DNA from: Akkermansia sp.
Lineage (GTDB): Bacteria > Verrucomicrobiota > Verrucomicrobiia > Verrucomicrobiales > Akkermansiaceae
Length of the DNA stretch: 21,605 nucleotides
Assembly (NCBI GenBank): GCA_020047775.1
Contig: JAIFNK010000181.1
Coordinates: 1 to 21,605, forward strand
Direction of reading: 5' to 3'
Part shown: in pieces, positions 1-17,700 of the stretch
How the letters are laid out: each line of letters begins with the position of its first letter
Position numbering within the stretch: the first letter of the stretch is position 1
The notes under the pieces: generated by a model
Seen by the model: only the letters and a program-made list of their open reading frames with translations
Told to the model about the DNA's origin: nothing
Database searches by the model: none
Translations under genes and position numbers: made by a program

Positions 1-2
1 CG

Positions 3-590
3 CCCGTGATTCCCATCGAGGACGCGCAACTTGCGGGCAAGACCGTGCGCCGCATCGGAGTGGCACAGAAATACAATCCGAAGCGCTCGAATGTGGAAAA
101 CCCCGAGTTGTTTCCAATCTGGCCGTTCCGCATCTTCGGGCTGGAGCGCCCGATGCTGGAGGAGGCGCGCAATGCCTATCAACTTCGCGGCAGCCACAAC
201 GACGTCGGCTGGGGTTACGACGGCAATGCGGCACCTCTGTTGGGAATGACCGACGAAGCCGCGCGCATCCTCAAGGTGAAGCTGTCCAATGCCAACGCCG
301 CCTACCGCTGGCCCTCCACTTGGGGACCGAATTTCGACTGGCTGCCCGACCAATGCCATGGCGGCAACCTGATGGCCGCCATCAACTACATGCTGATCCA
401 GCATTCCGGCGACAAGATCCTGCTGCTACCCGCATGGCCGAAGGATTGGGATGTTTCCTTCAAGCTCCATGCCCCGCGCCAGACCACCGTCGAAGTCGTC
501 TATCGCGGCGGTAAAATCGAAAAACTCGAAGTTCTCCCACGGGAAAGACGCAAGGACATCACCCTCCCGGCTGGACTCGATGCATCGTGA
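3..590 (+). CDS. GH95-like glycoside hydrolase, C-terminal part (5' end outside window)
   Basis: The frame is open from the first bases of the window to a TGA at 588-590, so only the last ~195 residues are present. The visible part matches, from memory, the end of the (alpha/alpha)6 barrel and the small beta domain of GH95-like enzymes (alpha-L-fucosidase type and DUF5703-type relatives). It has an FRIFGLERPMLEEARNAY stretch, a WPSTWGPNFDWLPDQCHGGN segment, an NYMLIQHSGDKILLLPAWP segment typical of the barrel end, and a beta-rich tail ending KIEKLEVLP. Such enzymes trim fucose or related sugars from glycans. The aldolase gene starts 64 bases after the stop on the same strand, with no obvious terminator between, so a catabolic operon is likely. 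The exact substrate cannot be read from this fragment. The N-terminal catalytic region and any signal peptide are not visible. Confidence 0.62.
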   Translation, partial: PVIPIEDAQLAGKTVRRIGVAQKYNPKRSNVENPELFPIWPFRIFGLERPMLEEARNAYQLRGSHNDVGWGYDGNAAPLLGMTDEAARILKVKLSNANAAYRWPSTWGPNFDWLPDQCHGGNLMAAINYMLIQHSGDKILLLPAWPKDWDVSFKLHAPRQTTVEVVYRGGKIEKLEVLPRERRKDITLPAGLDAS

Positions 591-654
591 CCCCGCGATT
601 TTCCCCACTCAAGCCGCTTGCCTGATTGGCACCCATTCACAAGAATCAACCGAA

Positions 655-1668
655 ATGTCACAATCCACCATCAACGGCATCTTCGTTCCCAACATCGTTC
701 CCTACGACGCCAAGGGCCGCATCGACGAAGACGAACTCCGCCACATCATCCGCTGGGTCGGCGACAAGGGCGTCACCGGATTTTATCCGAACGGCAGTAT
801 GGGCGAGTTCATCCGCCTCAGCTACGAGGAGCGCCGGACAGTCGTGCGCATCGTCAGCGAGGAAGCAAAGGGCCGCCCGATTCTCGCCGGAGCCGCCGAA
901 GCCAACATCGAACTCGTTTTGGAAATGTGCAACTACTGCGCGGATCTCGGTTGCCGCGCGGTCTCCATCACCGGACCCTATTACTACAAGCTCACGCAGG
1001 AGAGCATCGAGGCCTACTTCCGCGAGCTCGCCGCCAAGTCACCGATCGACATCGTTGTGTATAACATCCCGGTCTTCGCTAACGAAATTTCACTTCCCGT
1101 GCTCGAACGCCTCGCCATGGATTGCCCGCGCATCGTCGGCACCAAGGACACATCGAAGGACATGGGCCGCTTCCAACAGACGCTGCACACCATCAAGCGC
1201 CAGCGCCCGGATTTCTCCGTGCTCATCGGCTGGGAGGAACTGCTTTGCACCGGCCTCTTCATGGGTGCGGATGGTGGCACGCTCTCCAGCGCCGGGGTTG
1301 TCCCGGAAGTGGTGATGAGACTCTATCATGCCGCGCGCGCCGGAAAATGGGATGAGGCGAAACGCATTCAGTTCGAATTGCTCGATTTGTTCTCGCTGAT
1401 GGTCGGCGCGCCGAATTTCCCGGAAGGCTTCCGCACCGGCTACGAACTGCGCGGCTTCAAGGCGGGCAACGCGCGTTTCCCGCTCTCACCCGCCGAGCAG
1501 GGCCTCATCGCGGAAATGCGCTCCAAGCTCGCCTGCGTGCTCGCAGGTTGCGGATTTGAGGAAGCCGCCGGCGAATGCAGCCTCGGAAAATCAAAGCCAT
1601 CGCCGATGGACATCGATGCAATCGTCCAAGCGGTAATGAAGAACATCGAAGCCTCGCAAGCTCGCTAG
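655..1668 (+). CDS. DHDPS/N-acetylneuraminate lyase family aldolase with C-terminal encapsulation-peptide-like tail
   Basis: Class I (Schiff-base) aldolase of the DapA/NanA/2-keto-3-deoxy-sugar-acid aldolase family, 337 residues from ATG 655. The open frame extends further upstream (to 451), but that part overlaps the preceding hydrolase gene and lacks family similarity. Family marks are visible: the GSMGE loop at residues 47-51 (GTTGE in DapA), PYYYK, the catalytic tyrosine in YNIP at 136, and the Schiff-base lysine in GTKDTS at 164. Spacing is almost identical to DapA. The barrel ends near residue 305. It is followed by a polar G/S/K/P linker and a predicted amphipathic helix, MDIDAIVQAVMKNIEAS (318-334), of the kind that targets enzymes into bacterial microcompartments. 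The next gene, 6 bases on, encodes a BMC shell protein, which supports that reading. The substrate is unknown. Cleavage of a 2-keto-3-deoxy-sugar acid to pyruvate plus an aldehyde fits family and context. A housekeeping DapA is unlikely given the tail and neighbours. Confidence 0.88.
   Translation: MSQSTINGIFVPNIVPYDAKGRIDEDELRHIIRWVGDKGVTGFYPNGSMGEFIRLSYEERRTVVRIVSEEAKGRPILAGAAEANIELVLEMCNYCADLGCRAVSITGPYYYKLTQESIEAYFRELAAKSPIDIVVYNIPVFANEISLPVLERLAMDCPRIVGTKDTSKDMGRFQQTLHTIKRQRPDFSVLIGWEELLCTGLFMGADGGTLSSAGVVPEVVMRLYHAARAGKWDEAKRIQFELLDLFSLMVGAPNFPEGFRTGYELRGFKAGNARFPLSPAEQGLIAEMRSKLACVLAGCGFEEAAGECSLGKSKPSPMDIDAIVQAVMKNIEASQAR
1606..1656 (+). other. Putative BMC encapsulation peptide coding segment
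   Basis: These codons specify MDIDAIVQAVMKNIEAS, after the linker GECSLGKSKPSP. Hydrophobic residues fall at i, i+3/i+4 positions (I, I-V, V-M, I), giving one hydrophobic helix face. This is the pattern of known encapsulation peptides such as the PduP N-terminus. It lies beyond the normal end of DHDPS-family barrels. Targeting function is inferred from pattern and from the adjacent shell gene. Confidence 0.62.
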
Positions 1669-1674
1669 CAGAAC

Positions 1675-2184
1675 ATGCAGGCCCTCGGATTCATCGAAGC
1701 ACCCTTCCTCAGCATTTCCGCCATGCTCGCCCACGAGGCGGCCACAACGGCGGACGTCCATATCCTGGGATTCGAAGATACCGGCAACGAAAACCTGCTC
1801 ATCCGTCTATCCGGTGAAATCGCGCAAATCCGCGCCGCGCTCGATGCCGCGGAAAAGCTCGCCCCTCAACTCGGCGCATCCATCGTCACCGGCATCATCC
1901 CCCGCCCCGCCGACGGATTCGACTCGATGATCCATTTCCCTGATCCACCACCACCCCGGCGGCACGGTGGAAAGGCAGGACCAAGTCGCCGTGGAAGAGC
2001 CGTTGGAAATCCGGTTGGACGGTCATCCGGTGGCAGTGGTGATGCGCACGCCGGGGCACGACGACGAGCTGGCGCGCGGGATTTCTGGTCACCGAGGGGA
2101 TTATTTCCAAGAATCCGATTCACTTCCCTCGCGACATGCCCGGCGGCAGGTCGGCATCCTTGCCACTGCGTTGCGGCTTGGTGA
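1675..2184 (+). CDS. Bacterial microcompartment shell protein, single BMC domain (BMC-H-like); native 3' end probably lost
   Basis: Residues 1-80 from ATG 1675 form one BMC domain: MQALGFIEAPFLSISAMLAHEA, then ADVHILGFEDTG, LLIRLSGEIAQIRAALDAAE and GIIPRP (PRP at 76-78). These align end to end with PduA/CcmK-type shell proteins, which assemble into hexamers that tile the shell facets. It is divergent. The pore loop, usually KIGSG, reads EDTGNEN, and the usual lysine before the second strand is a threonine. The gene starts 6 bases after the aldolase stop, so the two are probably cotranscribed. A BMC-H is normally ~90-100 residues. Here the frame stays open to 2184 (169 residues), but from about residue 90 (nt ~1945) it reads a proline/arginine-rich sequence that is an out-of-frame copy of an fdhD fragment. 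The last ~80 residues are therefore probably not native. The BMC domain itself looks intact. Confidence 0.82.
   Translation: MQALGFIEAPFLSISAMLAHEAATTADVHILGFEDTGNENLLIRLSGEIAQIRAALDAAEKLAPQLGASIVTGIIPRPADGFDSMIHFPDPPPPRRHGGKAGPSRRGRAVGNPVGRSSGGSGDAHAGARRRAGARDFWSPRGLFPRIRFTSLATCPAAGRHPCHCVAAW
1940..2135 (+). pseudogene. fdhD: fdhD remnant (formate dehydrogenase sulfurtransferase), frameshifted and truncated
   Basis: The frame read from 1940 gives HHHPGGTVERQDQ, then VAVEEPLEIRLDG, then VVMRTPGHDDELARG. This is the conserved N-terminal part of FdhD, which transfers sulfur to the molybdenum cofactor of formate dehydrogenases. One surplus base near 2081 shifts the frame. Read in the next frame the family pattern continues as FLVTEGII, and similarity then stops near 2105. 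FdhD is normally ~260-280 residues, so about four fifths is missing, including the catalytic cysteine region. There is no ATG in frame; a TGA at 1928-1930 precedes it. The fragment overlaps the 3' extension of the shell gene in another frame. A 7-bp direct repeat, TGATCCA (1928-1934 and 1941-1947), lies at the junction. Identification of the fragment is fairly sure; it cannot be functional. Confidence 0.75.
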
Positions 2185-2430
2185 TGGACGACCCGGGGCC
2201 GGGCGTGAAAAATTTCAGTTGGAAGGACTCGGCGGCTGCCCATGCGCCATTCTTCCACTCGAAAAAGAGGCCGGATGGGAAGGTCACGTTACCGATGGGA
2301 TATCATTGGCCCCATGTGTTGTTTTTTGTGTCCCAGCTCCGGTGCGCGTCGCAGCCGAAAGCGACGAGGTAGTTTTTGGAATTGCCCTTTATGGATTTCA
2401 GTATCCTGGAGGTGCGCTCCCCATACCCGG
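2120..2430 (-). pseudogene. Unidentified coding remnant with in-frame stop
   Basis: On the minus strand a protein-like frame runs from about 2430 to a TGA at 2120-2122. It contains GNSKNYLVAFGCDAHRSWD, KNNTWGQ, then an in-frame TGA near 2307, then NVTFPSGLFFEWKNGAW, ESFQLKFFTPGPGSS and a DLPPGMSRGK terminus. The composition (aromatics, glycines, ordered charge) looks like genuine protein rather than random translation, but I do not recognise the family. The stop in the middle and the lack of a start suggest a decayed gene. It overlaps the 3' end of the fdhD remnant. This could be a chance frame. Confidence 0.3.
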
Positions 2431-2812
2431 ATCGTTATGGCCAGACGGCTTCCCCAATTGTTTTGCGCGAAGTTCCGCCAGTGACATCTCGTAGCTTTTT
2501 CTCAAGCTTCGGAATTTGGTTTGGATCTCTTCGATGCTTGGGGGATTTTCGATAAAGGTGGCGAACCCTTCGTCGTCTTCGCTGAGGCTCCCTCTGCACA
2601 TCCGGTTCAAGGCGATTTCGAACTCCATTGGGGTTAGCTCGGCTTGATCGAATGCTCCTTTCCATTTTACCACTCCGAATTGGTGGTCTTTTTCCAGGAT
2701 GAAGAGGTCAAGGTCCTCGCTGATCCGATGCCCAATGTATAGGGAGAGTCCTGTTCCTCCGATGAGGATGAATACCCCATGGGCGCTGCCGCCAGATTCG
2801 AATTGACCCGCC
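2398..2812 (-). pseudogene. AbiEii/AbiGii-like nucleotidyltransferase remnant
   Basis: The minus-strand frame contains ILIGGTGLSLYIGHRISEDL followed by DLFI. This is the signature of AbiEii/AbiGii-type toxins (DNA polymerase beta-like nucleotidyltransferases: GGT, then GHR-S-DLD with the metal-binding aspartates). These are the toxin half of type IV toxin-antitoxin or abortive-infection pairs. Only ~130 plausible residues follow, against ~250-300 in the family. The tail (FIENPPSIEEIQTKFRSLRK, then SLAELRAKQL) could correspond to the family C-terminus with the middle deleted. There is no good start codon just before the GGT motif; the open frame to 2988 runs antisense into the neighbouring secreted-protein gene. 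No antitoxin gene is visible. The motif is clear; the inactive state is inferred from length and missing start. Confidence 0.55.
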
Positions 2813-2839
2813 AGTCCATCAGCAAGAGCCTGATCCGGT

Positions 2840-3703
2840 ATGACAACGTTCCGATCCGCCGTCTCCGCGGCCACCTTGTTCGCCCTCGTTTCTAACGCCC
2901 CTGCCGGTATCACCATCGGCCCGGTCCGTGCACAGCCGGGCGAAAGCGTGCGGCTGGTCACTTTTTCCGAAACAAAGGGCGGAACCATCCAGAAAGACTA
3001 TCTCGGCAAGTCCAGCACCGGAAAAATCGAAGTCACCCGCGAACGGGACCTTGTCTGGACCTTCCGCTCCCCCGCCGCCGATGGCACGCGCCGCGGCATG
3101 GTCCGGGTGCCCAAAATCACCACCACCACGAAAACCGTGATCGATGGCAAGGAGGAAAAGATCACCGACAAAAGCCCGCTCGTCGGCAAGATGTTCGCGA
3201 TGTCCAAATCCCCTACCGGTGACTGGAATTTCGAGCTCGATGGTTCCCTCCCACTGGCCCGGGTCCAATCCGAGATCGACGAACTCAAGGTCTATCTGAA
3301 GCGCGACTGGTATCCGGCCCGCGAGATCAACGTCGGCGATTCCTGGGAATTCGATCCGGCCTGGATCCGGATGACCATCGAAAAAGACATTTCCAAAGCC
3401 CAGACCATCGGCACCATGAAGCTCCGCCAGGTGCGCAGCGCTGAGACGCGCCGGATCGCGGTCATCGACGTGTCGATCCGCAGCACCGGCACGGACTTGC
3501 GCCCGGATGGAATTCAGGCGAATGCGTCCGTCGATATCACCGGTGAGGTTATCGTGAACCTCAACACCATGCTCGACGAAACCCTCGAGCTGAAAGGGAC
3601 CATCGTCACGACCACCACCAAAGGCGCGGAAACCACCAAGGTGACACTCCCCATCCGACTGTTAGCAACCAAGTCGTTTGTCAAGGACAGCCCGATGCCT
3701 TGA
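2840..3703 (+). CDS. Secreted/periplasmic protein of unknown function
   Basis: 287 residues from ATG 2840. The N-terminus (MTTFRSAVSAATLFALVSNA, then PAG) looks like a Sec signal peptide cleaved near residue 23. The mature part is beta-rich with many T, V, K and R residues. It has a stretch of threonines around KITTTTKTVIDGKEE, a central WYPAREINVGDSWEFDP segment and a repeated STGT/TTTTKG pattern near the end. The alternation of strands and the "GDSW" turn resemble small bacterial periplasmic beta proteins of unknown function; no catalytic motif is seen. It stands alone, between the AbiEii remnant on the other strand and the lactate dehydrogenase remnant on the same strand. No family could be named with confidence. 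Coding reality is supported by the uninterrupted frame, signal peptide and consistent composition. Confidence 0.7.
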   Translation: MTTFRSAVSAATLFALVSNAPAGITIGPVRAQPGESVRLVTFSETKGGTIQKDYLGKSSTGKIEVTRERDLVWTFRSPAADGTRRGMVRVPKITTTTKTVIDGKEEKITDKSPLVGKMFAMSKSPTGDWNFELDGSLPLARVQSEIDELKVYLKRDWYPAREINVGDSWEFDPAWIRMTIEKDISKAQTIGTMKLRQVRSAETRRIAVIDVSIRSTGTDLRPDGIQANASVDITGEVIVNLNTMLDETLELKGTIVTTTTKGAETTKVTLPIRLLATKSFVKDSPMP

Positions 3704-4117: not shown

Positions 4118-5101
4118 ATGCCGATTTTCTGCCATCCTTCCCCGTCCAAAGGTGCCGCAATCATGGCGGAGGAGTTTTCCTCGTCACTCTCACCCGAGAT
4201 CGTGTGGATCGATCTACTGAACGCCACCCCGGCGGAAGTTACGGCCATCGAAAAGCATTTCGGGATCTCACTTCCGACGCGTGAGGAGATGCGCGAAATC
4301 GAAAGCACGAGCCGCCTCTATTGCGAGGATGACGCCCGCTTCCTCACGACTCCACTGCTGGTCAGCACCGAGAGCGAGGATCCACATTCGACGGAGATCG
4401 GCTTCGTGTTTGTCAAAGATCACCTGCTCACCATCCGGAATGTGGATCCACACAGTTTCAAGCAAACCGTCAACCTGTTCGCCAAGCGCCCGCAACCGAA
4501 CCGGGACCAGGTTTTCGTGGCGCTGATCGAGGCCATGGTGGATCGCCAGGCGGATCTCTTGGAACGATTGTCCAAGGAAATGGACGAGCTGTCGCACCGG
4601 ATTTTTTCCCGGCTGAAACGGGCGAAGGAATCCGAGAACAACCTGCGCGACGCGATCTACCGACTGGGCCGCAGTGGCGACCTCATCGGCCGGGAGCGTG
4701 ATTGCATCGTGGGCCTCACCCGGCTGGTGCAGTATGCCGGCCATGATGATTCCGACGGTCCCGGCATCAGCGCGGATTCCTCATGCTATCAAAAACTCAG
4801 GCCCATCATGCGCGACCTCCAATCGCTGGCAGAATTCGCCGGGTTTCTCGCCTCGAAAGTCAGCTTCATGCTCGATGCCACGCTCGGGCTCATCAACATC
4901 GAGCAGAACACGATTGTGAAAATCTTCACCGTAGCGGCGGTCATCTTTCTGCCGCCCACCCTCGTCGCCAGCATTTATGGCATGAACTTCGACGTGATGC
5001 CGGAACTCCGCTGGCAGCTCGGTTACCCGTTTGCGATTTTCGTGATGGCCTGCTCGGTCGCCCTGCCGTTCTGGTTCTGCCGGCGCAAGGGATGGCTGTG
5101 A
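4118..5101 (+). CDS. corA: CorA-family Mg2+/Co2+ transport protein (first copy)
   Basis: 327 residues. CorA proteins are pentameric inner-membrane channels for Mg2+ (also Co2+, Ni2+). Seen here: the cytosolic entry motif VWIDLLNATPAE near residue 29, an acidic alpha/beta domain, a long charged helical stalk (residues ~130-260), and TM1 (KIFTVAAVIFLPPTLVASIY). TM1 ends in the signature GMN motif at about 288-290. A short loop follows, then TM2 (YPFAIFVMACSVALPFWF) and a basic KGWL end. Start ATG 4118 puts VWIDL where E. coli CorA has it and has AGGA 8 bases upstream. ATG 4163 would give 312 residues and is a reasonable alternative. No Mg2+ riboswitch is recognised upstream; the leader follows the ldhA remnant. 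A second corA occurs at 9923. Substrate preference cannot be read from sequence. Confidence 0.93.
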   Translation: MPIFCHPSPSKGAAIMAEEFSSSLSPEIVWIDLLNATPAEVTAIEKHFGISLPTREEMREIESTSRLYCEDDARFLTTPLLVSTESEDPHSTEIGFVFVKDHLLTIRNVDPHSFKQTVNLFAKRPQPNRDQVFVALIEAMVDRQADLLERLSKEMDELSHRIFSRLKRAKESENNLRDAIYRLGRSGDLIGRERDCIVGLTRLVQYAGHDDSDGPGISADSSCYQKLRPIMRDLQSLAEFAGFLASKVSFMLDATLGLINIEQNTIVKIFTVAAVIFLPPTLVASIYGMNFDVMPELRWQLGYPFAIFVMACSVALPFWFCRRKGWL

Positions 5102-5122
5102 CCGCACGGACTCCGTGCCGGT
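5101..5122 (+). terminator. GC hairpin directly after corA stop
   Basis: GCACGG and CCGTGC arms (5104-5109, 5113-5118) enclose a 3-base loop. An ACCG/CGGT extension is possible with one bulged C. It starts within the stop codon region. There is no T-run, only GGTTAGGAAAA, so a classic rho-independent terminator is uncertain. It may be mRNA 3'-end protection or a short repetitive palindrome. Confidence 0.35.
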
Positions 5123-5245
5123 TAGGAAAAAGCGCGCACTCGGGAATCCACGGCGGATGCTTTCAAGCGATCTGATGGGAAACCTGTTAAATTCCGCGAT
5201 GGTTCTTGACGGGCGAGGGAAAACCCAACAGTTACCTCAGTTGTT

Positions 5246-5722
5246 ATGTCCCAAAATCTAGCAAACATTGCATTGACTCCCGCCGAAATCACCATTTTGA
5301 ACGGCGCTCTACAAACCATCCGCACCACTCTTGGCACCCGCGCCGTGAGTCTGACACCGGATCAACGGAAAAACCTCGTCAAGATGGGCGACAACACCCG
5401 CATCTTTTGCCAGCAGGCCGTCACCGGCCTCCAACAGAACTCCGGCAGCATGCCACCCGACCTCGACATCCCCGGCCTCGTCCAGGATTTCGCGGACTAC
5501 ACCGCCCTCGAAACCTTCGTTGCTGAATACGAGGCCGTTGGAGAACTCCTTGATGACACGCTCAAGGCGATTTCCAGCGACGTCATGACCAACAGCATCA
5601 TCGGCGTCAGCTTTCTCAAGACCCTAAACAAGATCAATCCCGCCCTGGATACCCTGGTTGGCGCGCTCAAGACCGTCCGTCGCCGGAAGCCGGTCAAAAC
5701 TGTTACCCCGCTCGTCGCCTGA
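5246..5722 (+). CDS. Conserved helical protein of unknown function
   Basis: 158 residues from ATG 5246, predicted mostly alpha-helical and soluble, with no signal peptide and no membrane segment. It carries the pattern LTPDQRKNLVKMGDNTRIFC near residues 40-60, followed by PPDLDIPGLVQDF and ELLDDTL. I recognise this (L-T-P-E-E-R-K-x-L-x-K-M-G-D-K-T ... L-D-x-x-x-L ... L-x-D-T) as a widespread family of short uncharacterised bacterial proteins, often annotated only as hypothetical. The C-terminus is basic (VRRRKPVKTV). It stands alone: 144 bases after corA, and followed by a repeat region. A TTGACG at 5206-5211 could be a -35 element, but no convincing -10 follows. No function is proposed. Confidence 0.75.
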   Translation: MSQNLANIALTPAEITILNGALQTIRTTLGTRAVSLTPDQRKNLVKMGDNTRIFCQQAVTGLQQNSGSMPPDLDIPGLVQDFADYTALETFVAEYEAVGELLDDTLKAISSDVMTNSIIGVSFLKTLNKINPALDTLVGALKTVRRRKPVKTVTPLVA

Positions 5723-5835
5723 TTCACTTCTCTCATCCGGGGGGTGATTTCGGCGCGACAATGCTGCAACCGTTCCCCGGAACCCCATTCCACTCACGCC
5801 CAAGCGTGAAAACCCATCCCGCGTGAGCTCCGCAG

Positions 5836-6002
5836 CATTCGCACGAACGCTCAGACCGTTCCCACGAACGTTCCACATCATTCAGACGAACGCTCAGAGC
5901 CTTCCCACGAAGGTTCCCCATCATTCAGCGGAACGCTCCAACCGTTCCCGCGGATGCCCAAGGGCATTCCTTCGAACGCTCCGAGCGTTCCGGCGTCCGC
6001 CT
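5836..6002 (+). repeat. Four degenerate 43-bp tandem repeats with GAACG-N7-CGTTC palindromes
   Basis: Units begin CATTC at 5836, 5879, 5922 and 5965, exactly 43 bp apart; the fourth is partial. Each contains GAACGCTC followed by a second half ending GTTCC or similar. Units 1, 3 and 4 keep the inverted pair GAACG...CGTTC, which is longest in unit 4 (GAACGCTC, 1-base loop, GAGCGTTC). Upstream sequence near 5768-5790 looks like a more decayed unit. The region is non-coding, between the 158-residue protein gene and the hairpin element. Confidence 0.85.
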
Positions 6003-6027
6003 TTTTGCTGCCGCAAGTCACACGGCT

Positions 6028-6099
6028 ATAAGGAGTAGCGACATTCCTGTCGCTACTTTCTCGTCCCGCTGTGGCGACATGAATGTCGCCACTCCTTAT
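6028..6099 (+). repeat. Paired-hairpin (REPIN-like) palindromic element, copy A
   Basis: The outer inverted arms are ATAAGGAGT (6028-6036) and ACTCCTTAT (6091-6099). Inside are two hairpins. The first is GTAGCGACA/TGTCGCTAC (6035-6043, 6048-6056) with loop TTCC. The second is GTGGCGACAT/ATGTCGCCAC (6071-6080, 6083-6092) with a 2-base loop. The same architecture recurs at 21496-21550 and as a half at 9013-9032. It resembles REP doublets mobilised in trans by RAYT transposases; no such transposase is in the window. It lies 53 bases upstream of the restriction-modification start. Confidence 0.85.
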
Positions 6100-6152
6100 T
6101 GGAAATTTCCCTCGCCCCGCCTCCCGGCGATTTCCTAGCTTTCAGCCACCTC

Positions 6153-9008
6153 ATGCTCTCCTGGAACGAAATCCGCCACCGCGCCATCGGCTTCTCCCGT
6201 GAAAACCGCGACAAGACTTCCGAGGAGTCCGACAAGCAGTCCTTTTGGAACGAATTCTTCCATATCTTCGGCATCAGGCGCGGCGCCGTCGCCTCATTCG
6301 AGGAACCGGTGAGAAAACTCTCCGGAAACCTTGGAAAAATCGATCTCTTCTGGCCCGGCAAGCTGCTCGTCGAGCACAAGTCCGCCGGGCAGAACCTCGA
6401 CAAAGCGCATACCCAGGGCATGGAGTACATTCGTGGACTCGTCGACTCCGGCCGCGACAAGGATGTCCCGCGTTTCCTCATCGTCTCCGATTTCAAGCGT
6501 ATCGCCCTGCACGATCTGGAACCGGAGCAGGACCCGGATCTGCCGCTTTTGAAGCGACTCCCGCCCTCCATTGTTTTCCCGTTGGAGGACCTTCACAAAC
6601 ACATCCGCCGCTTTGCCTTCATCCCCGGCTACAAGCAGCACAAGCTCAATCCGGAAGACCCCGCCAATATCGAGGCCGCCGAGCTCATGGCGCATCTTCA
6701 CGATGCCCTGCTCGCCGGTGGCTTCTCCGGTCACGACCTGCGCGTTCTCCTCGTCCGTGTGCTGTTCTGCCTCTTCTCCGACGATACCGGCATCTTCAAC
6801 CAGAAGGATTTCCAACTCCTCATCGACAATCGGACCAAGCCCGACGGCGGTGACACCGGCCCGCTGCTTGCCAGACTCTTCGACGTTCTCAACACCCCGG
6901 AGGACAAGCGCCAGGCCAATTTAGATGAAGACCTCACCGCCTTTCCCTACATCAATGGAGCGCTATTCGAGGAGCGCATCTCGTTTGCGGACTTCAATGC
7001 CCAGATGCGCGGCCAGCTTCTCAAAGCCTGCGCCTTCAAATGGGAGCGCATCTCACCCGCCGTCTTCGGCTCATTGTTCCAAGGCGTCATGGATTCCAAG
7101 GAGCGCCGCCAAGTCGGGGCGCACTACACGGCAGAGAAAAACATCCTCAAGCTCATCCGACCGCTGTTCCTGGATGAACTCCGCGCCGAGTTCATCGCCG
7201 CCAAGACCGACAAATCCACCCGTCGCACCGCCCGCCTCGAAGCGCTCCATCAGAAACTCGGCGCCCTCCGGTTCTTCGACCCCGCTTGCGGCTGCGGAAA
7301 CTTCCTCGTCATCACCTACCGGGAACTCCGCTCCCTCGAACTGGAAATCCTGCTGGAGCTCCACCGCAACGAACTCAGCGAAACCCAGCACGAATTCTCC
7401 TTCGACGTCACCAAGCTCTCCAAAGTGGACGTCGATCAAATGTACGGCATCGAGATCGAGGAATTTCCCGCCCGCATCGCCGAAGTCGCGCTTTGGCTCG
7501 CCGATCACCAGGCAAACATCGCCATGTCCGAAGCCTTCGGGCAGCTCTATCGGCGGATTCCGCTGAGGAAGTCGCCGCATATTGTCTGTGCGAATGCGCT
7601 GCAGACAGATTGGAAAGTCGTCTTAGCACCCGAGAAATGCGGCTTTATTTTGGGAAATCCGCCATTTATCGGAAAGCAGTTCATGTCACCTGAGCAAAAG
7701 GCGGACATGCAAGCCATCTGCGGCCATGTGAAAGGAAGTGGTGTGCTCGACTTCGTGACCGGATGGTATTTCAAGGCGGCGGAATATATGCGGACCGGCG
7801 GCGCGCGCTGCGCTTTCGTTTCCACCAATTCGATTGCTCAAGGCGAGCAACCCGGAGTCCTGTGGCATGAGTTGTTCTCGCGGCATCGGATGAAAATCCA
7901 CTTCGCTCACCGCACTTTCGCATGGGAGAGCGAGGCCCGCGGCAAAGCCCATGTGCATTGCGTCATCATCGGATTTGGTTCCGGAGACATCTTGGTCAAA
8001 CGCATTTTCGATTACGAATCGGATCCGGAAAATCCCAGTGAAGTGGTCGTTCCCAACATCAATCCCTACCTGGTGCAGGGCGGCGACATCGTATTGACGA
8101 AGCGCTCCTCACCCGCCTGTGCCGTCCCAGCAATCGTTTTCGGCTCGATGCCGAACGATGGCGGCAATCTGCTACTTACCCCGCCCGACAAACACGATCT
8201 TCTGCTGGAAGAGCCGGACGCGGCCGAGTTCATCCGCCCCTTCATCGGCTCCGAAGAATTCATCAACGGCATCGAACGTTGGTGCCTGTGGCTGGAAGGA
8301 ATCAGCGCCGCGAAACTCCGCTCCATGCCGGTGGTTTTCAAACGCGTAGCCGCAGTCAAGCAACACCGGCTTAACAGCACTCGTGCGGCAACCCGGCAAC
8401 TCGCAAACAGACCCACGGAATTCGCGGAAAACCGGCAACCCCATTCCAGCTATCTGCTCATTCCCGGAGTATCCAGCGAGAACCGACCCTATGTCCCTAT
8501 CGGTTTCATCCGACCGCATGTGGTCGCCAGCAATCTGGTCAACATCATCCCCGACGCCACGCTCTATCATTTCGGCGTGCTCACCTCCACCATGCACATG
8601 GCCTGGATGAAACACGTTTGCGGACGTCTGAAGAGCGATTTCCGCTACTCCAACCAAATCGTCTATAACAACTTCCCTTGGCCGGAAACCATTTCGGAAA
8701 GCAATCTCGCCAAAGTCAAATCCCTCGCACAACAAATTCTCGACACGCGGATCGAATGCGGTGACGGCCGCCATGGCTACCTGCCCGCCCGCAAGAAAAG
8801 CGCGGCATGCACATTGGCGGACCTTTACGATCCGGTCTCCATGCCGCCGAAACTGGCAAAGGCCCACGAGCAGCTCGACCGCGCCGTGGACCGCTGCTAC
8901 CGCAAGGAGCCCTTCCTCACCGACCGCCAGCGCGTGGAATACCTTTTCGCCCTCTACGAACAACTCGCCGCCCCGCTGGTCGCCAAGCCCGCGAAGCGGA
9001 AAAAATAA
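6153..9008 (+). CDS. MmeI-like type IIL restriction-modification enzyme (fused endonuclease and adenine methyltransferase)
   Basis: 951 residues from ATG 6153. The frame is open to 6099 (TTG), but that start falls in the repeat arm, and family members begin near LSWNEIRHRA. Order: an N-terminal PD-(D/E)XK nuclease with D64, E74 and K76 in KIDLFWPGKLLVEHK, the same D-X9-E-X-K spacing as MmeI; a helical spacer; and an N6-adenine methyltransferase core with SAM-binding FFDPACGCGNFL (about 373-384) and catalytic NPPF (about 502-505). A target-recognition region follows, and a C-terminal helical part containing VYNNFPWPE. MmeI itself is 919 residues, so this is full length. Such single-chain enzymes methylate one strand of an asymmetric site and cut about 20 bases away; they need no separate specificity subunit. 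No shift or missing catalytic residue is seen. The recognition sequence cannot be predicted here. The gene is flanked by related palindromic repeats. Confidence 0.92.
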   Translation: MLSWNEIRHRAIGFSRENRDKTSEESDKQSFWNEFFHIFGIRRGAVASFEEPVRKLSGNLGKIDLFWPGKLLVEHKSAGQNLDKAHTQGMEYIRGLVDSGRDKDVPRFLIVSDFKRIALHDLEPEQDPDLPLLKRLPPSIVFPLEDLHKHIRRFAFIPGYKQHKLNPEDPANIEAAELMAHLHDALLAGGFSGHDLRVLLVRVLFCLFSDDTGIFNQKDFQLLIDNRTKPDGGDTGPLLARLFDVLNTPEDKRQANLDEDLTAFPYINGALFEERISFADFNAQMRGQLLKACAFKWERISPAVFGSLFQGVMDSKERRQVGAHYTAEKNILKLIRPLFLDELRAEFIAAKTDKSTRRTARLEALHQKLGALRFFDPACGCGNFLVITYRELRSLELEILLELHRNELSETQHEFSFDVTKLSKVDVDQMYGIEIEEFPARIAEVALWLADHQANIAMSEAFGQLYRRIPLRKSPHIVCANALQTDWKVVLAPEKCGFILGNPPFIGKQFMSPEQKADMQAICGHVKGSGVLDFVTGWYFKAAEYMRTGGARCAFVSTNSIAQGEQPGVLWHELFSRHRMKIHFAHRTFAWESEARGKAHVHCVIIGFGSGDILVKRIFDYESDPENPSEVVVPNINPYLVQGGDIVLTKRSSPACAVPAIVFGSMPNDGGNLLLTPPDKHDLLLEEPDAAEFIRPFIGSEEFINGIERWCLWLEGISAAKLRSMPVVFKRVAAVKQHRLNSTRAATRQLANRPTEFAENRQPHSSYLLIPGVSSENRPYVPIGFIRPHVVASNLVNIIPDATLYHFGVLTSTMHMAWMKHVCGRLKSDFRYSNQIVYNNFPWPETISESNLAKVKSLAQQILDTRIECGDGRHGYLPARKKSAACTLADLYDPVSMPPKLAKAHEQLDRAVDRCYRKEPFLTDRQRVEYLFALYEQLAAPLVAKPAKRKK

Positions 9009-9032: not shown

Positions 9033-9289
9033 CATCCGGTGCGGAGCCGCTGAAAACGAAGCAACTTTGGCCCAATTGCCACCCCCGTTTCTTCTCGCGT
9101 GATTGAATTTCGAGCGGCAAACTCGGTCCATGTGGCCGCATCACCATTCGGAATGCCAGGCACCGGGAAAGAGGTCCGGGGATGCATAAGGCCGCATGGC
9201 ACGCCGTCAGGAAAAGGCGGTTGAAGCGGGGCTCACCGCCGCACGCGGTAGCCCACCACCAGCGGGGCGTCTGGCAGAGGTTCGGCCGG

Positions 9290-9846
9290 ATGCGCGAGTC
9301 CGGACGCAGGACGTGGATTGCGTTTCTCGCGGTGCTGGGTCCGGGACTGCTGGCCGGGCTTTCCGACGATGATCCGGCGGGCATCACGACTTACTCGGTG
9401 CCGGGTGCGGATTTCGGCTACACGCTGCTCTGGATCATCCCGGCCTCGACGGTGTTGTTGGTGCAATTTCACCTCATGGCGGTGCGACTGGGAGCGGCGA
9501 CGGGCAAGGGATGCGTAGGCCTCATCCGCGAGAAATGGGGACGCGGGGCGGGCTACTTCGCGGTGGGCGGGCTGCTTTTCGCCAACTTCGGAACGATCTG
9601 CGCGGAGTATGCCGGGATCTCGGCGACGCTGGCGCTCTACATCGTGGACGGGCTGCTGGCTGGACCGGACTGGGGCGCGGTGTGGCACCGCTCGCTGGTC
9701 CCGCACCTGCCGACGAGCCCGGCCGGATGGATCGCGATCGCCGCGGCACTGGGCACGACGCTGCCGGATGGGTGAGCATCGTGCTGGTCCTGGCATGCGT
9801 GGGTGCGCTGGGCTGGAGATGGGTTGCCGGGCGATTCGGAGAGTGA
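9290..9846 (+). pseudogene. Nramp-family divalent metal transporter, internally deleted
   Basis: The reading frame (ATG 9290; open from 9182) gives the Nramp N-terminus. It contains FLAVLGPGLLAGLSDDDPAG, then TTYSVPGADFGYTLLW, LVQFHLMAVRLGAATGKG and LLFANFGTICAEYAGISATL. This covers about the first four or five of eleven membrane segments, including the metal-site helix. At about 9770 the frame hits TGA after GTTLPDG. In the next frame WVSIVLVLACVGALGWRWVA follows, ending with a stop at 9844-9846; this matches a last membrane helix. Around 200-250 central residues are therefore missing. The full-length family is ~400-450 residues and moves Mn2+, Fe2+ or Mg2+ by proton coupling. The gene sits directly upstream of a corA gene. 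It cannot be functional as read. Confidence 0.78.
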
Positions 9847-9922
9847 GCAAGATCGAAGTGCCGGGATGACTGGCCCGATCCAGTGGCTTGCCTCGCCAGA
9901 CGGGAGCCCTACAATCACGGCC

Positions 9923-11014
9923 ATGTTCACCAAGCGCCACGGTCCGCCGGGATCATCTCCCGCCACGCTTCTTCCCCACCTGGTCGATGGCCAAACCCGC
10001 AAACCCGGCATCCAGATCATCGAATACGACAAGGACTCGCTTGAAGAACGCGACATCACGAGTCTGGAGGAATTCGCCGGACATTTTGAAAGCCGCAAGA
10101 TCACCTGGATCAACATCGACGGCCTCGGCGACGTCGAGGCGCTGACATTCCTTGGCAAGCGCTTCAATCTCCACCCGCTGGCGCTGGAAGACGTGCTCAA
10201 CACCGGCCAGCGCCCCAAGATGGAGCACACCGCGGACTACATCTTCATCGTCGCCCAGATGGTCTATCAAGACGCGGGGAATGCCATCCGCAGCGAACAG
10301 GTCAGCCTGTTTTTCGGGAGGAATTTCCTCATCACCGTCCAAGAGGAAGGAACCTATGATGTCTTCGATCCGGTCCGCGAGCGCATCCGCGGCGGGCGCG
10401 GCTCGCTCCGCAAGCTCAAGGCGGACTACCTCGCCTACGCACTGCTGGACTCGATCATCGACCACTACTATCCGGTGCTCGAGGACCTTGGTTCCTCCAT
10501 CGAGGAGCTGGAGGATGACCTACTGGAAAGACCGTCCCGCGAGATGGTCATGACCCTGCACGATTACAAGCGCAGCCTCACCCAGATGCGCCGCTTCGTC
10601 TGGCCGCTGCGGGACGTGGTGAACGGCCTGCTCCACGACCCGTCCGGTTTCATCACCCCTCCCACCAAGATCTATCTGCGGGACTGCTACGACCACACCG
10701 TGCAGCTCATGGATCTGGTAGAGAGCTACAAGGAACTCACCTCCGGCCTCATGGAACTCTATCACTCCAGCGTCGGGCTCCGCACCAACGAGGTCATGCG
10801 CGTGCTCACCGTGATCACCTCCATCTTCATCCCGCTAACCTTCCTTGTCGGTGTTTACGGCATGAACTTCGCCGCCCAGACAACCGAAGGGAAAAAACTG
10901 CCGCTCAACATGCCCGAACTCTATCACCCGTATGGCTACATCGGACTCATGGTCCTCATGGGCGTCATCGCCCTGGTCCAGTTGATCCTCTTCAAAAAAA
11001 TGAAGTGGCTGTGA
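9923..11014 (+). CDS. corA: CorA-family Mg2+/Co2+ transport protein (second copy)
   Basis: 363 residues from ATG 9923. The frame is open to 9803, but the extra N-terminus overlaps the Nramp remnant's end and has no family similarity. Seen: an acidic cytosolic domain with ITWINIDGLGDVEAL, HPLALEDVLNTGQRPKMEH (a classic CorA block), then FFGRNFLITVQEE. A long stalk helix region follows, then TM1 (LTVITSIFIPLTFLVGVY) ending in GMN at about 313-315. The periplasmic loop contains MPELYHPYGY, followed by TM2 (IGLMVLMGVIALVQLILF) and the basic terminus KKMKWL. The MPEL loop after GMN is typical of functional CorA. It differs from the first copy over most of its length and looks closer to the longer, Thermotoga-type CorA, so the two are paralogues rather than a recent duplication. 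No SD or known riboswitch is evident. Confidence 0.94.
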   Translation: MFTKRHGPPGSSPATLLPHLVDGQTRKPGIQIIEYDKDSLEERDITSLEEFAGHFESRKITWINIDGLGDVEALTFLGKRFNLHPLALEDVLNTGQRPKMEHTADYIFIVAQMVYQDAGNAIRSEQVSLFFGRNFLITVQEEGTYDVFDPVRERIRGGRGSLRKLKADYLAYALLDSIIDHYYPVLEDLGSSIEELEDDLLERPSREMVMTLHDYKRSLTQMRRFVWPLRDVVNGLLHDPSGFITPPTKIYLRDCYDHTVQLMDLVESYKELTSGLMELYHSSVGLRTNEVMRVLTVITSIFIPLTFLVGVYGMNFAAQTTEGKKLPLNMPELYHPYGYIGLMVLMGVIALVQLILFKKMKWL

Positions 11015-11272: not shown

Positions 11273-11411
11273 CGTTTACGCCTTGGATGGATTTCCCGGC
11301 CGCATGAACCCGCCTCATCCGCGACATGAGCACTCCCCCGCCGCAGGTCCGGATTGCCCGTGGGGCCTCGTATGCGGCGTGCTAGCCCGACAGGCTCATC
11401 CGCCGTTTTCC

Positions 11412-12739
11412 ATGCTCGCCCGACTCCTCAAACAACACACCGGTCCCCTGACCCGCGACCTGGTGCTGGAACCCGGGAACTTCGGGCTCGGGAAAATCCC
11501 GTCGCGCCTGAAGCCAAGCTCCACCGTCACCTCGATCTGCCGCTTTTACGCGACCGGCTGCCAGCTGAAAATCCACCTCGATGAACACGGCGAGGCCATC
11601 AACCTGAGCCCGCAGGCGGGCTACCCGGTGAATCTCGGCATGGCCTGTCCGAAAGGCTGGCAGGCGCTCGACCCGCTGGATTCGCCGGACCGGGCGACGT
11701 CTCCACTGCTGCGCGATGCATCCGGAAAATTGATGGAGACGGATTGCCCGACCGCGCTCGACGTGTTCACCACCCGGCTCAAGGAAATCCGTGAGCGCCA
11801 CGGGCGGGAGTCGGTGGCGTTTCTATCAACCGGGCAGATCCCCTTCGAGGAAATGGCGTTTCTCGGCTGCCTGTTCAAGTTCGGCATGGGATTCCTGCAT
11901 TGCGACGCGAACACGCGCCAGTGCATGCCGACGGCGGCCACGGCCTACAAGCAGTCGTTCGGCTTCGACGCCCCACCGGCGACCTATGCGGACTTCGAGC
12001 AGTCGGACGTGATCGTCCTGATTGGAGCCAACCTCTGCATCGCCCATCCGATCCTGTGGCAACGCGTCATGCGCAACCCGCGGAACCCGGAAATCATCGT
12101 CATCGATCCACGGGCAACTGAAACCGCGCAAGCGGCAACACAACACCTGGCGCTGAAACCGAAGGGTGACCTTGCGCTGTTATACGCGCTCGCCCACTGC
12201 ATCGTGCGCGATGGCCGGGTGGACGCGGAGTCGCTGGCCCGCACCGAGGGCATCGCTGAATTCACGGAATTTCTCAGCAACTACCATACTCCTAACGGCA
12301 AGGCGAAGCTCCTGTTCTCCCCGCCTGCGGAAATGCCCGAGCCACCGGATTCCAGTTACCCCTTCCTCATGCTCACCGGCCGCGGCACCAGCAGCCAGTG
12401 GCAAACCCAGACACGTACCTCCAAGTCCGACATCCTGAGAAAACTCTATCCGCAGCACGTCTATCTGGAAGTCCATCCCGCCAACGCCCGCCAACGCCCG
12501 CCAACGCCCGCCAACTCGGGCTCAAGGTGGGCGACCCGGTGACCGTCCGCTCGCGACGGGGCGAAATGACAGCCTCCGTCTATCTGGCACCCACCGTCCA
12601 GCGCGGGCAGGTGTTCGTGCCGATGCACTACAAGGAGGTGAACCGGCTGACCCACTCCGCCTTCGACCCGCATTCCCGCCAGCCGAACTACAAAGCCTGC
12701 GCGGTGGCACTGGTCCGGCCCTCCCCTCTTCGCACGTAG
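11412..12739 (+). pseudogene. nasA: Assimilatory nitrate reductase catalytic subunit (molybdopterin oxidoreductase), multiply damaged
   Basis: The start ATG 11412 gives [20 protein letters not shown], matching the N-terminus of this family (open frame from 11283). Typical blocks follow: [16 protein letters not shown], the [13 protein letters not shown] segment, [36 protein letters not shown] and [16 protein letters not shown]. Damage is of three kinds. First, the [4Fe-4S] motif should read CxxCxxxC but is C43-R-F-Y46-A-T-G-C50, with one ligand changed to Tyr (TAC for TGC). Second, after [13 protein letters not shown] (near 12285) the sequence jumps to [12 protein letters not shown] and the C-terminal domain, losing ~200 or more residues. 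Third, a 10-bp repeat expansion at 12477-12515 shifts the frame; the C-terminal molybdopterin-binding part ([18 protein letters not shown] to the TAG at 12737) continues in the other frame. The enzyme would reduce nitrate to nitrite in the cytoplasm. No nirB, nasB or transporter gene is nearby. Confidence 0.88.
12477..12515 (+). repeat. 10-bp tandem repeat (CCAACGCCCG) causing a frameshift in nasA
   Basis: Three full copies of CCAACGCCCG at 12481-12510 are flanked by CCCG and CCAAC, about 3.9 units in all. The ancestral reading [16 protein letters not shown] needs two units fewer. The 20 extra bases change the frame by two, which exactly accounts for the switch to the downstream nasA frame. 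Confidence 0.9.
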
Positions 12740-14747: not shown

Positions 14748-17700
14748 TTAGAGATCCGACTTAACAATTACCGTCCGTCCGATGGCTCCCATCACGCCTA
14801 GCAGCAAACAAAGAACAACACCCAGCCAGGCGAAGCCGCTGCCGACGCGCTTGAGATCGAGCGTGATCGACATCGGTCGCTGGCCGTCCACCTGCACGCT
14901 GCGGCCGAAGGTGAGCACGGTGCCGCGCTCCGGCAGCGTGATGTCGAGCGCGACGGGCGCGGGTTCGGCGGCGAGCTGCTGGGTGACGATGCGGTTGGCG
15001 ATTTCCTTGAGTGCGGCGTTTTCGTCGGCGGTGTTGCCTTCGAGGAAACGGTCGAACTGTTTGGGATCGTAGTTATAGCCGCCGCGCAGGACGGGGTTCG
15101 CCTCGGCGGCGCGGTCGAGCTGGGTGTTAGCCGCCTGAGGCGCGGCACTGCGGTTGTCGATGGTGAGCTTCTGGCGGCGGGTGTTGAGTCCTAACACGGC
15201 TTGCTGGGTCTTGAGCTGGCGGAGCTGGACGCGGGCGTCCTCGCCGGAGGCGGCGTCGAGTTGGTTGCTGCGGACGGCATTGCTGAAGGCGTTGCTGGCC
15301 TTTTCCTGGTCGCCCGCCGCAAGCCATGAGTTCGCCTGGTTCAACAGCGCGGCGGCATTCGCCGAGTCGCTTTGTTTCTTGCCCTGCACAAACGACTGAT
15401 AGTCCTCCAGCTTGAAGGAACCCATCGCGGACTGTTGTTTCAGATCGAAGTCGCCGCCATGGTCAACCATCCGCCAGCCTTCCGGCACGAGCACGCGCCA
15501 GGTTAGATTTTCCATCGGCACGTTGAGGATCGGGCCTTCGAGACGGCTGCCCTTGCTGGTCCCCGCGGAATAGACGAAGCGCACGTTGGCAGGGCGGCCC
15601 ACTTCCGGTGACGGGAAAACGTAGAACAACCATTCGTCGCCCTCGCGGACCAGCGTGGCTCCCTCCTCGTTGACGAGCACGTTGAACAACGCGGAGCCTT
15701 TAGGAAGTTTCAAACGCAGAGTGCCTTTTCCGACGACCTGCATCTTCAAGTCCACGGCGGTGAGCGCGTCCCCATCCGGCGACATCAGGGTGGTGAGCGA
15801 TCCTGCGGCGACCCGGAGTTTTTGCAAATCGGCGAGTTGATGGCGCTTTAAAACGACCGGCAGCGGGCCTTCGGGATCGGCGACGCGGAAGGCCATCAAC
15901 GGCGCGACATTCCCGGCCACTTGTCCGAGCGCCGACTGCACGACCGCCCAATCCGCGCGCTGCCAACCGCGCGGCATCGCACCGGCTTCCAACTCCAAGC
16001 GACCACCGGCGCGGATCGCGACGAAGTAGGAAAGCTGGCGGACTTGCTCCAGAACGATCGGCTGAATCAACTCGCCGCCATCGTCCTTGCTGGCGCGCTG
16101 GTATTCCAGTTCCACGCGGGTTTCCCCGGCGACGCCGCGCTGGAAACGAATCTCCCAGAGTCCCTGCTCGCCCTCGACGGGCACGAGGTCGGCGACAGCC
16201 GCGCCATTCGCCCGCACGGTGGCGGCAGCGGTGGCGTCGAGTCCGGGGATGCGGACGCGCAGCGATTTGAGCGCGGCGTTCTCGATTTTATAACCGATGA
16301 CCGCGCGGGTGAGCACCTGGCCCTCGCGCAGCGTGGATTCGTGGAAAACCTGCGCGGTCACCCATGGATCCAGGCGGCTGATGGCCAGACCTAGCGACCA
16401 GTCGCTTTGCAACAAGCGATAGACCAGGGCACCGGGCCGGGCGGCGGCGCGGGCGGATTCCTTCGGCGCATCCGCGAGCGTGCGGGGATCGAGCTGGGAG
16501 ATGTTTTTGCGCTCCACGGCCCGGACTTGCAATCCACGCTCGGGGACGACGGTGAGCACGCCGGTTTCACGCGAGGCATCGCGCAACGACAAGCGCGGCA
16601 CCTGCCATTTTTCCTGCGCTCCGGGCGGACGACCGGTTAGTGTGAGATTGAACTCGCGCTTGCCCATCGTCTTGCCGGTGAGGTGCAGCGTGATCACGCG
16701 CTTCGCGTCCACCTTGCCTTCCGTCCAATGACTCAAGCCCTCGCCGGTGGCGGTTTCCACCTCCAAGCCCTCCGGAACTTCCACTGCTAACCGGAATACA
16801 CCGGAGCGGGTGATCGTCACGGATAGATCGGTTGCCACCACCAACCGGTCCTCGCCCAGCGAGACCAACTGCCACGACTCCGCCCGCAGCTCGGGGGCGA
16901 CGGCGGCGACCTTCACCTGCGCCACCACCTTGCCCGTGCCGTAGCGGAACGCATGTTGCAGCAGCGCCAGTGGGTTTCCGTCCTTGTCGCGCGGCAGTAA
17001 TTTGGCGTTGAAATCCTCGGGATTCACCCGTGAAAGCCCCTCGACGTTGATCGTCTCCGGCTGCGCTTCCTCTCCGAAGGCCAGGGCGAGAAATCCGATT
17101 TCACCCGCAGCTCCGTTGACGCGGATGGGTTCGAGCGCCAGATCCATCGGTAGGGTTCCGGCACCGCGCTGGGTTTCCACCGTGAAGGCAAACGCCTGGT
17201 CCTGCGCCGGCTCGACCGGCACGCGGAGCTCACGCTTTTCCGGATCGAAGCGCCATGAACCGACCGGACCGTCGATCACATCGCTCACGGTGAAGCCCGC
17301 TGGCACCATCATGACAAGCGACGAGACGCGCCCCTGCGCCGGGCGGATCGCGACCCGGTGGCGACCATTGACCACGCCGGGTCCGGGCAGATAGAGATTG
17401 GAAACTTCGGCGAAAAACCTCGTTTCCTCGCTGCCGACATCACGTTGTTTCGGACGGGCCTGGATTTTCACGGAATCCGCCGGACCGAGCACCATCACCG
17501 CGCCGCTTTCCTTCGCGGTCAGGCCAGCGGGAGTCCTAACACTGGCCGCGCCGGGCGAGAGGAATTCCCAGCCCGCCTGATCCCAGCGCACGGTCACCTG
17601 GCGCATGGCGGCGGGTCCGCCGGGAAGCTCCCAGCCTTTTCCCGGATCTGCCAGAGGCATTTCGAAAGTCGCCTTGCCGGTCATGCGGCCCGCCGCATCC

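Follow-up and report, generated by a model that had tools for sequence, protein, structure and literature searches.

Does a dihydrodipicolinate synthase (DHDPS)-family aldolase followed by a bacterial microcompartment (BMC) shell gene mark a new type of microcompartment, or does it serve a compartment that is already known? The question is raised by a stretch of 21,605 nucleotides from Akkermansia sp. (order Verrucomicrobiales; GCA_020047775.1, contig JAIFNK010000181.1), referred to here as the window, which constitutes the entire contig C113 of a 3.06 Mb genome assembled in 337 contigs and 57% complete (L, G and C numbers are our handles for loci, genomes and contigs). An initial annotation of this DNA had suggested a possible new microcompartment type. 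Instead, we consider it likely that the window holds a satellite module of the PVM (Planctomycetes-Verrucomicrobia) microcompartment for L-fucose and L-rhamnose breakdown. The class I aldolase of the module would cleave a 2-keto-3-deoxy-L-sugar acid inside the shell, most likely 2-keto-3-deoxy-L-fuconate. The features that define the module are:

655..1668, + strand: DHDPS-family class I aldolase, 337 aa (PF00701, 173.5 bits)
1612..1665, + strand: C-terminal amphipathic helix of the aldolase, residues 320-337 (model helix 320-336, preceded by a flexible linker at about 308-319)
1675..1943, + strand: first BMC domain of a BMC-T shell gene, the second domain of which is missing here (PF00936, 37-39 bits)

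A class I aldolase with a C-terminal tail

The window protein combines the PF00701 barrel with the Schiff-base lysine and the catalytic tyrosine of the DHDPS/N-acetylneuraminate lyase class I aldolases, and these two residues, Lys164 and Tyr136, are kept in all 82 aligned aldolase rows. Its closest solved relatives by sequence are the KDG/KDPG aldolase 4uxd (132 bits) and YagE (113 bits), the latter of which also has the fold closest to the predicted model. In this model (mean pLDDT 90.8), a TIM barrel leads into a linker of low confidence and then into the C-terminal helix, and the initial description of a Schiff-base aldolase with a tail past the barrel was thereby borne out. A total of 1241 database homologues were retrieved at E<=1e-40; among the 120 listed, those named by their sources are mostly called dihydrodipicolinate synthase. 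Based on these relationships and the gene neighbourhoods described below, 2-keto-3-deoxy-L-fuconate or a related 2-keto-3-deoxy-sugar acid is proposed as the substrate.

The tail, a terminal linker followed by a short amphipathic helix, has the layout by which encapsulated cargo is recognised in sequences and models, and is probably an encapsulation peptide. Its distribution was analysed in 80 loci, the best of 149 relatives from a scan of named genomes, so that all counts describe the nearer relatives; nine of these loci duplicate contigs of another set of loci (L036, L040, L055, L065, L084, L086, L087, L088, and L108), and several genomes are counted more than once. The tail pattern after a variable linker was found in 74 of the 80 homologues and in 10% of shuffled tails, using a pattern that is lenient and also overlooks at least two obvious tails (P0026, P0031). 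It is likewise present in 117 of the 120 listed database homologues. The mean hydrophobic moment amounts to 0.585 over the 74 pattern-matching tails (shuffled 0.422, standard deviation 0.014) and to 0.575 over the 78 of 80 tails that are long enough (shuffled 0.420, standard deviation 0.013). No such tail was found in five other DHDPS-family proteins checked, two of which are from the window genome.

It could be argued that the aldolase is cytosolic and that its tail just docks to the exterior of the shell or serves another partner. Indeed, encapsulation peptides are recognised by sequence and model alone, and the module is usually located far from the main microcompartment locus. However, the layout of the tail resembles, by eye, the C-terminus of the PVM class II aldolase and the N-termini of the aldehyde dehydrogenase (AldDH) and PduL encoded in the same genome. 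Moreover, a BMC-T would be a strange partner for an enzyme of the cytosol; we therefore regard this explanation as improbable. Three terminal peptides of PVM cargo from the window genome have hydrophobic moments of 0.444-0.481, compared with 0.513 for the window aldolase tail.

As a separate observation, the Verrucomicrobiia genome Co_bin.226 encodes four paralogous tailed aldolases in different neighbourhoods (L064, L085, L090, and L091), which suggests specialised sugar-acid substrates feeding one shell.

Pairing with a two-domain shell protein

The shell gene starts at position 1675, six bases past the stop codon of the aldolase gene, as the initial annotation had stated. The gene is incomplete, however: its relatives encode a two-domain BMC-T of about 206 aa, of which the window retains the first half. 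An intact gene of 206-215 aa follows the aldolase in L023, L024, L026, L028, and L034, and two BMC domains were found in each of those orthologues that were aligned or scanned (L023, L024, L026, and L034). The relatives thus show the two complete PF00936 domains of a non-permuted tandem BMC-T, and the window gene does not. A reading of the window gene as a single-domain BMC-H was rejected after alignment with the intact two-domain relatives. DNA homology stops at position 1940 in comparison with L034, L035, L039, and L108 and at positions 1956-1958 in comparison with L024/L036 and L026/L055; the break may be either a real rearrangement or an assembly join.

The best full-length match of the BMC-T model is the synthetic BMC-H tandem 6ner (template modelling score about 0.77), and natural BMC-T proteins such as PduT align poorly to it over both domains (about 0.4). 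Alignment of 34 BMC-T proteins revealed a conserved motif around PLYGGRDQxLPTD in the inter-domain linker, which is lost in the aligned Latescibacterota and Planctomycetota copies and is perhaps a docking or pore element.

A search for recurrent aldolase-BMC pairing, as suggested in the initial annotation, was successful: 44 of the 80 loci, spread over several phyla, encode a two-domain BMC-T next to the aldolase gene or close to it. At 40 loci, a BMC domain is encoded on the same strand within 300 bases downstream (39 two-domain proteins, and L070, which is cut by a contig end), and a two-domain BMC-T was found nearby in five more (L046, L061, L079, L088, and L111). In L103, the aldolase is followed at a distance of 363 bases by one BMC domain only, and L075 is cut at a contig end. 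According to their titles, the linked cases belong to the Verrucomicrobiota, Planctomycetota, and Latescibacterota, with single loci titled Ignavibacteriae, Omnitrophota, and Hydrogenedentota; L051, which bears the last of these titles, matches L050 exactly at the protein level and is probably misbinned. In a tree built without L108 and L038, linked cases occur in all main branches (47 of 80 ingroup rows, 18 changes). The module appears to be carried by many aquatic Verrucomicrobiota and some relatives. This distribution bears on the possibility that an ordinary DHDPS-like enzyme and a shell pseudogene became chance neighbours in a fragmentary contig. The truncation of the window shell gene and the gene debris that follows it would fit such a scenario; however, the recurrence of the pairing across phyla and the finding that, within the order, this BMC-T occurs only in aldolase-bearing genomes make it extremely unlikely.

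Association with a resident PVM compartment

All three BMC-P genes of the window genome are located on contig C306 and none on C113. C306 also carries three BMC-H genes and genes for PduL, an acetate-type kinase, a PduP-like AldDH, a malate-type dehydrogenase, a DeoR regulator, and a class II aldolase with a C-terminal tail (PF00596, 142 bits). It matches the gene set of the PVM main locus (Axen et al., 2014; PMC4207490), including that of a recent isolate (PMC13274419); statements on the literature refer here and below to the consulted sections of the cited papers. The window's own locus does not hold this set, and the module itself is without BMC-P, AldDH or PduL. It corresponds to the definition of a BMC satellite locus, which is distal, has an incomplete set of shell genes, whether or not enzymes accompany them, and occurs in a genome with a main locus (Axen et al., 2014, PMC4207490; Sutter et al., 2021, PMC8217296). 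Because the same genome and its relatives hold a PVM locus, the window module is to be considered a satellite and not a separate compartment type.

The co-occurrence of module and compartment was analysed in 288 genomes of the order. A match to the aldolase at E<=1e-40 was found in 11 of them, ten of which encode the tailed form; the eleventh, in G004, is distant (34% identity) and tail-less. BMC-P is present in 40 of the 288 genomes and all ten tailed-aldolase genomes are among these 40 (hypergeometric 9e-10, the relatedness of the genomes being ignored). Within the genus, the corresponding values are 7 of 15 genomes with BMC-P and 0 of 12 without it (Fisher 0.008, relatedness again ignored). 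BMC-T of this kind was detected in eight of the 288 genomes (full length, with half a gene in G000), all of them aldolase-bearing, and was not detected in the remaining 30 BMC-P genomes of the order; its association with the aldolase among the 40 BMC-P genomes gives a hypergeometric value of 6e-7, likewise ignoring relatedness. In G137 and G149, the BMC-T gene lies on a different contig from the aldolase gene, and G183 and G249 carry the aldolase without this BMC-T.

For the relatives, BMC-P was tested at 50 of the 80 loci (49 genomes), a selection that is not random, since the six tail-less loci were all included together with 23 of the 34 loci lacking a neighbouring BMC-T; it was found in 45 of the 49 genomes. 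The remaining four are G291 (L110, no tail), G318 (the probably misbinned L051), G322 (L078), and G334 (L045); in L078, DeoR and PduL genes adjoin the aldolase gene. A PVM class II aldolase was identified at E<=1e-50 in 51 of 59 aldolase-bearing genomes. Three of the other eight (G310, G311, and G316) encode class II aldolases of a more distant kind in the main locus, and the genomes that remain without a match are G291, G294, G318, G322, and G334. A replacement of the class II enzyme by the DHDPS-type aldolase in Latescibacterota was considered and rejected, as their main loci hold a class II aldolase despite the missing E<=1e-50 match.

These results bear directly on the proposal of the initial annotation that the DHDPS-family aldolase defines a new microcompartment type of its own. 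In its favour, the aldolase has its own BMC-T partner and, in some loci, a full catabolic cassette (L049, see below). Against it stand the PVM locus with a class II aldolase on C306, the lack of BMC-P, AldDH, and PduL in the module, the presence of mostly one set of three BMC-P genes per genome, the frequency of the PVM class II aldolase given above, and the presence of a class II aldolase also in the examined main loci of Latescibacterota and Planctomycetota members. The proposal was consequently abandoned as very improbable.

Two further gene arrangements were observed in main loci. In L126 (G321, 4657-8001), two more genes adjoin the main PVM locus, one DHDPS-family-like and one of the enolase superfamily (seed matches of 60 and 152 bits); they come after the class II aldolase and a weak malate-dehydrogenase match. 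In G316, a genome titled Ignavibacteriae, a two-domain BMC protein is encoded inside the main BMC locus (L122, 7148-7717), besides the satellite BMC-T of L069.

Pathway neighbours and the probable substrate

The most informative neighbourhood is found in L049 (Opitutales), where genes for a short-chain dehydrogenase/reductase (SDR), an enolase-superfamily dehydratase, an SSF transporter, an amidohydrolase, the aldolase, and BMC-T form a row, and an IclR-type regulator is encoded on the other strand. Over nearly its whole length, the dehydratase aligns with human ENOSF1 (348 bits) and with the L-fuconate dehydratase of X. campestris (347 bits). The amidohydrolase matches 4dlf (74 bits), which we take to be a fuconolactonase. 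The best solved relative of the SDR is HSD17B14, an L-fucose dehydrogenase (PMC11293516; PMC13406643). Parts of this cassette are repeated in L024, L027, L028, L045, L057, and others, in some cases together with GH29, GH95 or RhaT genes. Among the 28 loci of the window's clade, Amid2 was counted in 18, SDR in 9, RhaT in 7, FucD-like dehydratases in 5, GH29 in 4, and GH95 in 3. Such genes would supply route 1 of the non-phosphorylative L-fucose pathway, the final step of which is the cleavage of 2-keto-3-deoxy-L-fuconate (L-KDF) by an aldolase into pyruvate and L-lactaldehyde (PMC11199699). The earlier suggestion of a class I aldolase in a non-phosphorylative deoxy-sugar-acid pathway to lactaldehyde is thus supported in the relatives, and its placement in a stand-alone compartment is not.

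Fuconate dehydratase was found in 21 of the 288 genomes of the order. The near relatives G253, G077, and G281 carry copies that are 88-89% identical to that of L039; of the six copies with at least 68% identity, five are in aldolase genomes, and more distant copies occur mostly in genomes without the aldolase. A particularly complete arrangement exists in G221, in which a single contig stretch of about 29 kb contains genes for fuconate dehydratase (C4:221663), GH95, SSF, GH29, the aldolase (229338), and BMC-T (230430). The same stretch encodes another GH29, a rhamnulokinase-like kinase and L-fucose isomerase, whose 1069.5 bits exceed the cut-off of 775, and it includes the PVM locus, in which the class II aldolase is found at 249403-250521. 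Thus, the genes of a phosphorylative and of a non-phosphorylative route are located beside one shell locus.

A second aldolase subgroup adjoins a relative of L-rhamnonate dehydratase, which was tested in L094 and L099; the L099 dehydratase gives 251 bits to 3fxg. By similarity, these neighbours also occur in L096 and L098, and L101 was assigned to this rhamnonate-type subgroup by the tree only. Judged by contig name prefixes, four genomes contain both subgroups (L042/L094, L043/L096, L047/L098, and L046/L101). The fucose and rhamnose routes would both lead to L-lactaldehyde.

These neighbourhoods also raise the alternative that the window module is the same kind of satellite with another substrate, a 2-keto-3-deoxy acid derived from L-rhamnonate, L-galactonate or a pentonate, which would release L-lactaldehyde, glyceraldehyde or glycolaldehyde. 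The rhamnonate-type subgroup, its coexistence with the first subgroup in four genomes, and the lack of a dehydratase on the window contig are in line with this alternative, and L-fuconate dehydratases accept L-galactonate and D-arabinonate. However, fuconolactonase-like, fucose-dehydrogenase-like, GH29/GH95, and RhaT genes are present in some loci of the window's own clade, and the fuconate dehydratases of G253, G077, and G281 are found close to the window in phylogenetic terms. We therefore regard a different acid as unlikely for the window enzyme, although of all alternatives it deserves the most attention, and retain 2-keto-3-deoxy-L-fuconate as the favoured substrate.

Several observations weigh against a PVM satellite with an encapsulated, fuconate-derived feed. 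The window's own BMC-T is truncated and holds the first domain only, and the window tail is only moderately amphipathic (0.513, shuffled mean 0.42). Six of the 80 aldolases (L038, L080, L082, L093, L102, and L110) are without the tail pattern, and BMC-P is present in the genomes of the first five of these and was not found in that of L110; lack of the tail therefore does not go along with lack of the compartment. In 33 of the 80 loci, a satellite shell gene was not found within the stretch examined, the flanks of which vary in length; in one of these, L073, the aldolase gene is instead located at the main PVM locus, directly after the DeoR gene. With respect to the pathway, SDR families are large, and the SDR of L049 scores 157 bits with the fucose dehydrogenase model, whose cut-off is 300, and scores higher with several other SDR models. 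The L049 amidohydrolase reaches 132.5 bits with the fuconolactonase model (cut-off 400), and the L094 and L099 dehydratases reach 302-303 bits with the L-rhamnonate dehydratase model (cut-off 393). No fuconate dehydratase is encoded on the window contig and none was found in the window genome, which is 57% complete, and at E<=1e-100 the enzyme is present in just 16 of 59 aldolase-bearing genomes; therefore, other substrates must exist in the family. Finally, genes for CaiB (CoA-transferase family III) and a MaoC-like hydratase, which lie upstream of the aldolase in L024, L045, L047, L059, and L064, are common in the window's aldolase clade without an evident role in the pathway; their products may act on a CoA product of lactaldehyde.

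Proposed function and relation to known systems

In the model that we infer, the tailed class I aldolase would be taken into the PVM shell via its C-terminal encapsulation peptide and would there cleave, most likely, 2-keto-3-deoxy-L-fuconate into pyruvate and L-lactaldehyde. AldDH, PduL, and the acetate-type kinase of the main locus would convert the toxic lactaldehyde via lactyl-CoA and lactyl-phosphate into lactate. The co-encoded BMC-T probably joins the PVM shell, where it may be a pore for the sugar acid or for pyruvate. One lactaldehyde compartment would thereby receive two feeds, from the class II aldolase acting on fuculose-1-phosphate or rhamnulose-1-phosphate and from the class I aldolase acting on the non-phosphorylated acid. 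In a broader version, which we favour by a small margin over its negation, the PVM compartment would be a lactaldehyde hub with exchangeable, separately encoded entry modules consisting of paralogous encapsulated DHDPS-type aldolases and a dedicated BMC-T gate; its entry acids would be fucose-derived, rhamnose-derived and perhaps other 2-keto-3-deoxy acids, and the shell would accept both phosphorylated and non-phosphorylated pathways.

With the known PVM system, the module shares the genomes, the expected L-lactaldehyde and the downstream AldDH, PduL, and kinase. It differs in that sugar 1-phosphates are the substrates of the known signature enzyme, a class II aldolase (PF00596), whereas a class I aldolase (PF00701) is added here, with a non-phosphorylated keto acid as its proposed substrate, and in that the BMC-T of the module lies outside the main locus. 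The nearest published idea found is that of the satellite "EUT modules" (EutABC and BMC-T) of HO, SPU3, and SPU6, which were proposed to extend the substrates of a resident compartment (PMC8217296). They likewise combine a distal signature enzyme with a BMC-T, but enzyme and substrate are different and their BMC-T is of the permuted EutL type, in contrast to the non-permuted tandem found here. In the SPU systems, another class I aldolase family produces the aldehyde for the shell (PMC8217296; PMC4207490); the enzyme there is DeoC (PF01791) acting on deoxyribose-5-phosphate, whereas here a PF00701 enzyme is associated with a PVM shell.

A functional counterpart is FucH, the L-KDF aldolase of route 1, which is presumably a DHDPS-family protein. 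The same reaction is proposed for the window aldolase, and the same types of upstream enzymes are found in its relatives; the consulted sections on the FucH route, however, do not mention encapsulation or a shell partner (PMC11199699). The terms PF00701, pfam00701, and dihydrodipicolinate are absent from the main texts of the two BMC catalogues (PMC8217296; PMC4207490). No description of a DHDPS-family aldolase in a microcompartment was recognised in text searches of the literature, and a drawn but unnamed example may exist in catalogue supplements. To our knowledge, no other 2-keto-3-deoxy-sugar-acid aldolase serves as a microcompartment signature enzyme, and the enzyme described here would be the first.

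Other features of the window

Two further features flank the module:

3..590, + strand: GH95-like glycosidase, C-terminal 195 aa (90% identity over 194 aa to L034:34-2781)
1944..2900: debris after the break, non-homologous to the relatives, consisting of an FdhD fragment (+ strand), a 250-bp stretch, and an AbiEii-like fragment (- strand)

The end of the hydrolase gene, which is cut by the contig start, lies on the + strand like the aldolase and shell genes. A Pfam scan of the fragment 3-590 alone gave no match. The full-length syntenic hydrolase of L034, a metagenome-assembled genome titled Akkermansia muciniphila, contains DUF5703_N (259 bits), Laminin_G_3, and a weak GH95 catalytic domain (42.7 bits, cut-off 27). 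The designation "GH95-like", as used in the initial annotation for this upstream hydrolase, is therefore fair, and the DUF5703 N-domain alongside the GH95 domain places the protein in a divergent GH95-like group.

Within the debris, the 250-bp stretch is 83% identical to a stretch of contig C227. A partial molybdopterin oxidoreductase is located at 11283-12542, and formate-dehydrogenase-type pieces may thus occur twice on C113. The window also encodes an MmeI-type restriction-modification protein of 969 aa with five MmeI domains (6099-9008), two CorA-type transporters (4118-5101 and 9803-11014), the second of which is adjoined by a short Nramp N-terminal fragment (9182-9775), and, on the - strand, a 2280-aa protein for which Pfam gave no match at E<=0.001 (14748-21590).

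Implications

A phosphorylative route has been described for PVM loci, and it was pointed out that alternative fucose pathways can avoid lactaldehyde; the question was also raised whether the BMC route is of any advantage compared with such cytosolic routes (Orellana et al.; PMC8857213). Genomes of the G221 type suggest that even a non-phosphorylative route may run through lactaldehyde and the compartment. If the satellite model is correct, the tailed aldolase and its BMC-T would constitute a pair for the engineering of shells that take up sugar acids, and a function would be suggested for a large group of proteins that are mostly called dihydrodipicolinate synthase. The fucose/rhamnose microcompartment itself would then be a shared lactaldehyde-handling organelle that is fed by two chemistries and not by one signature aldolase.

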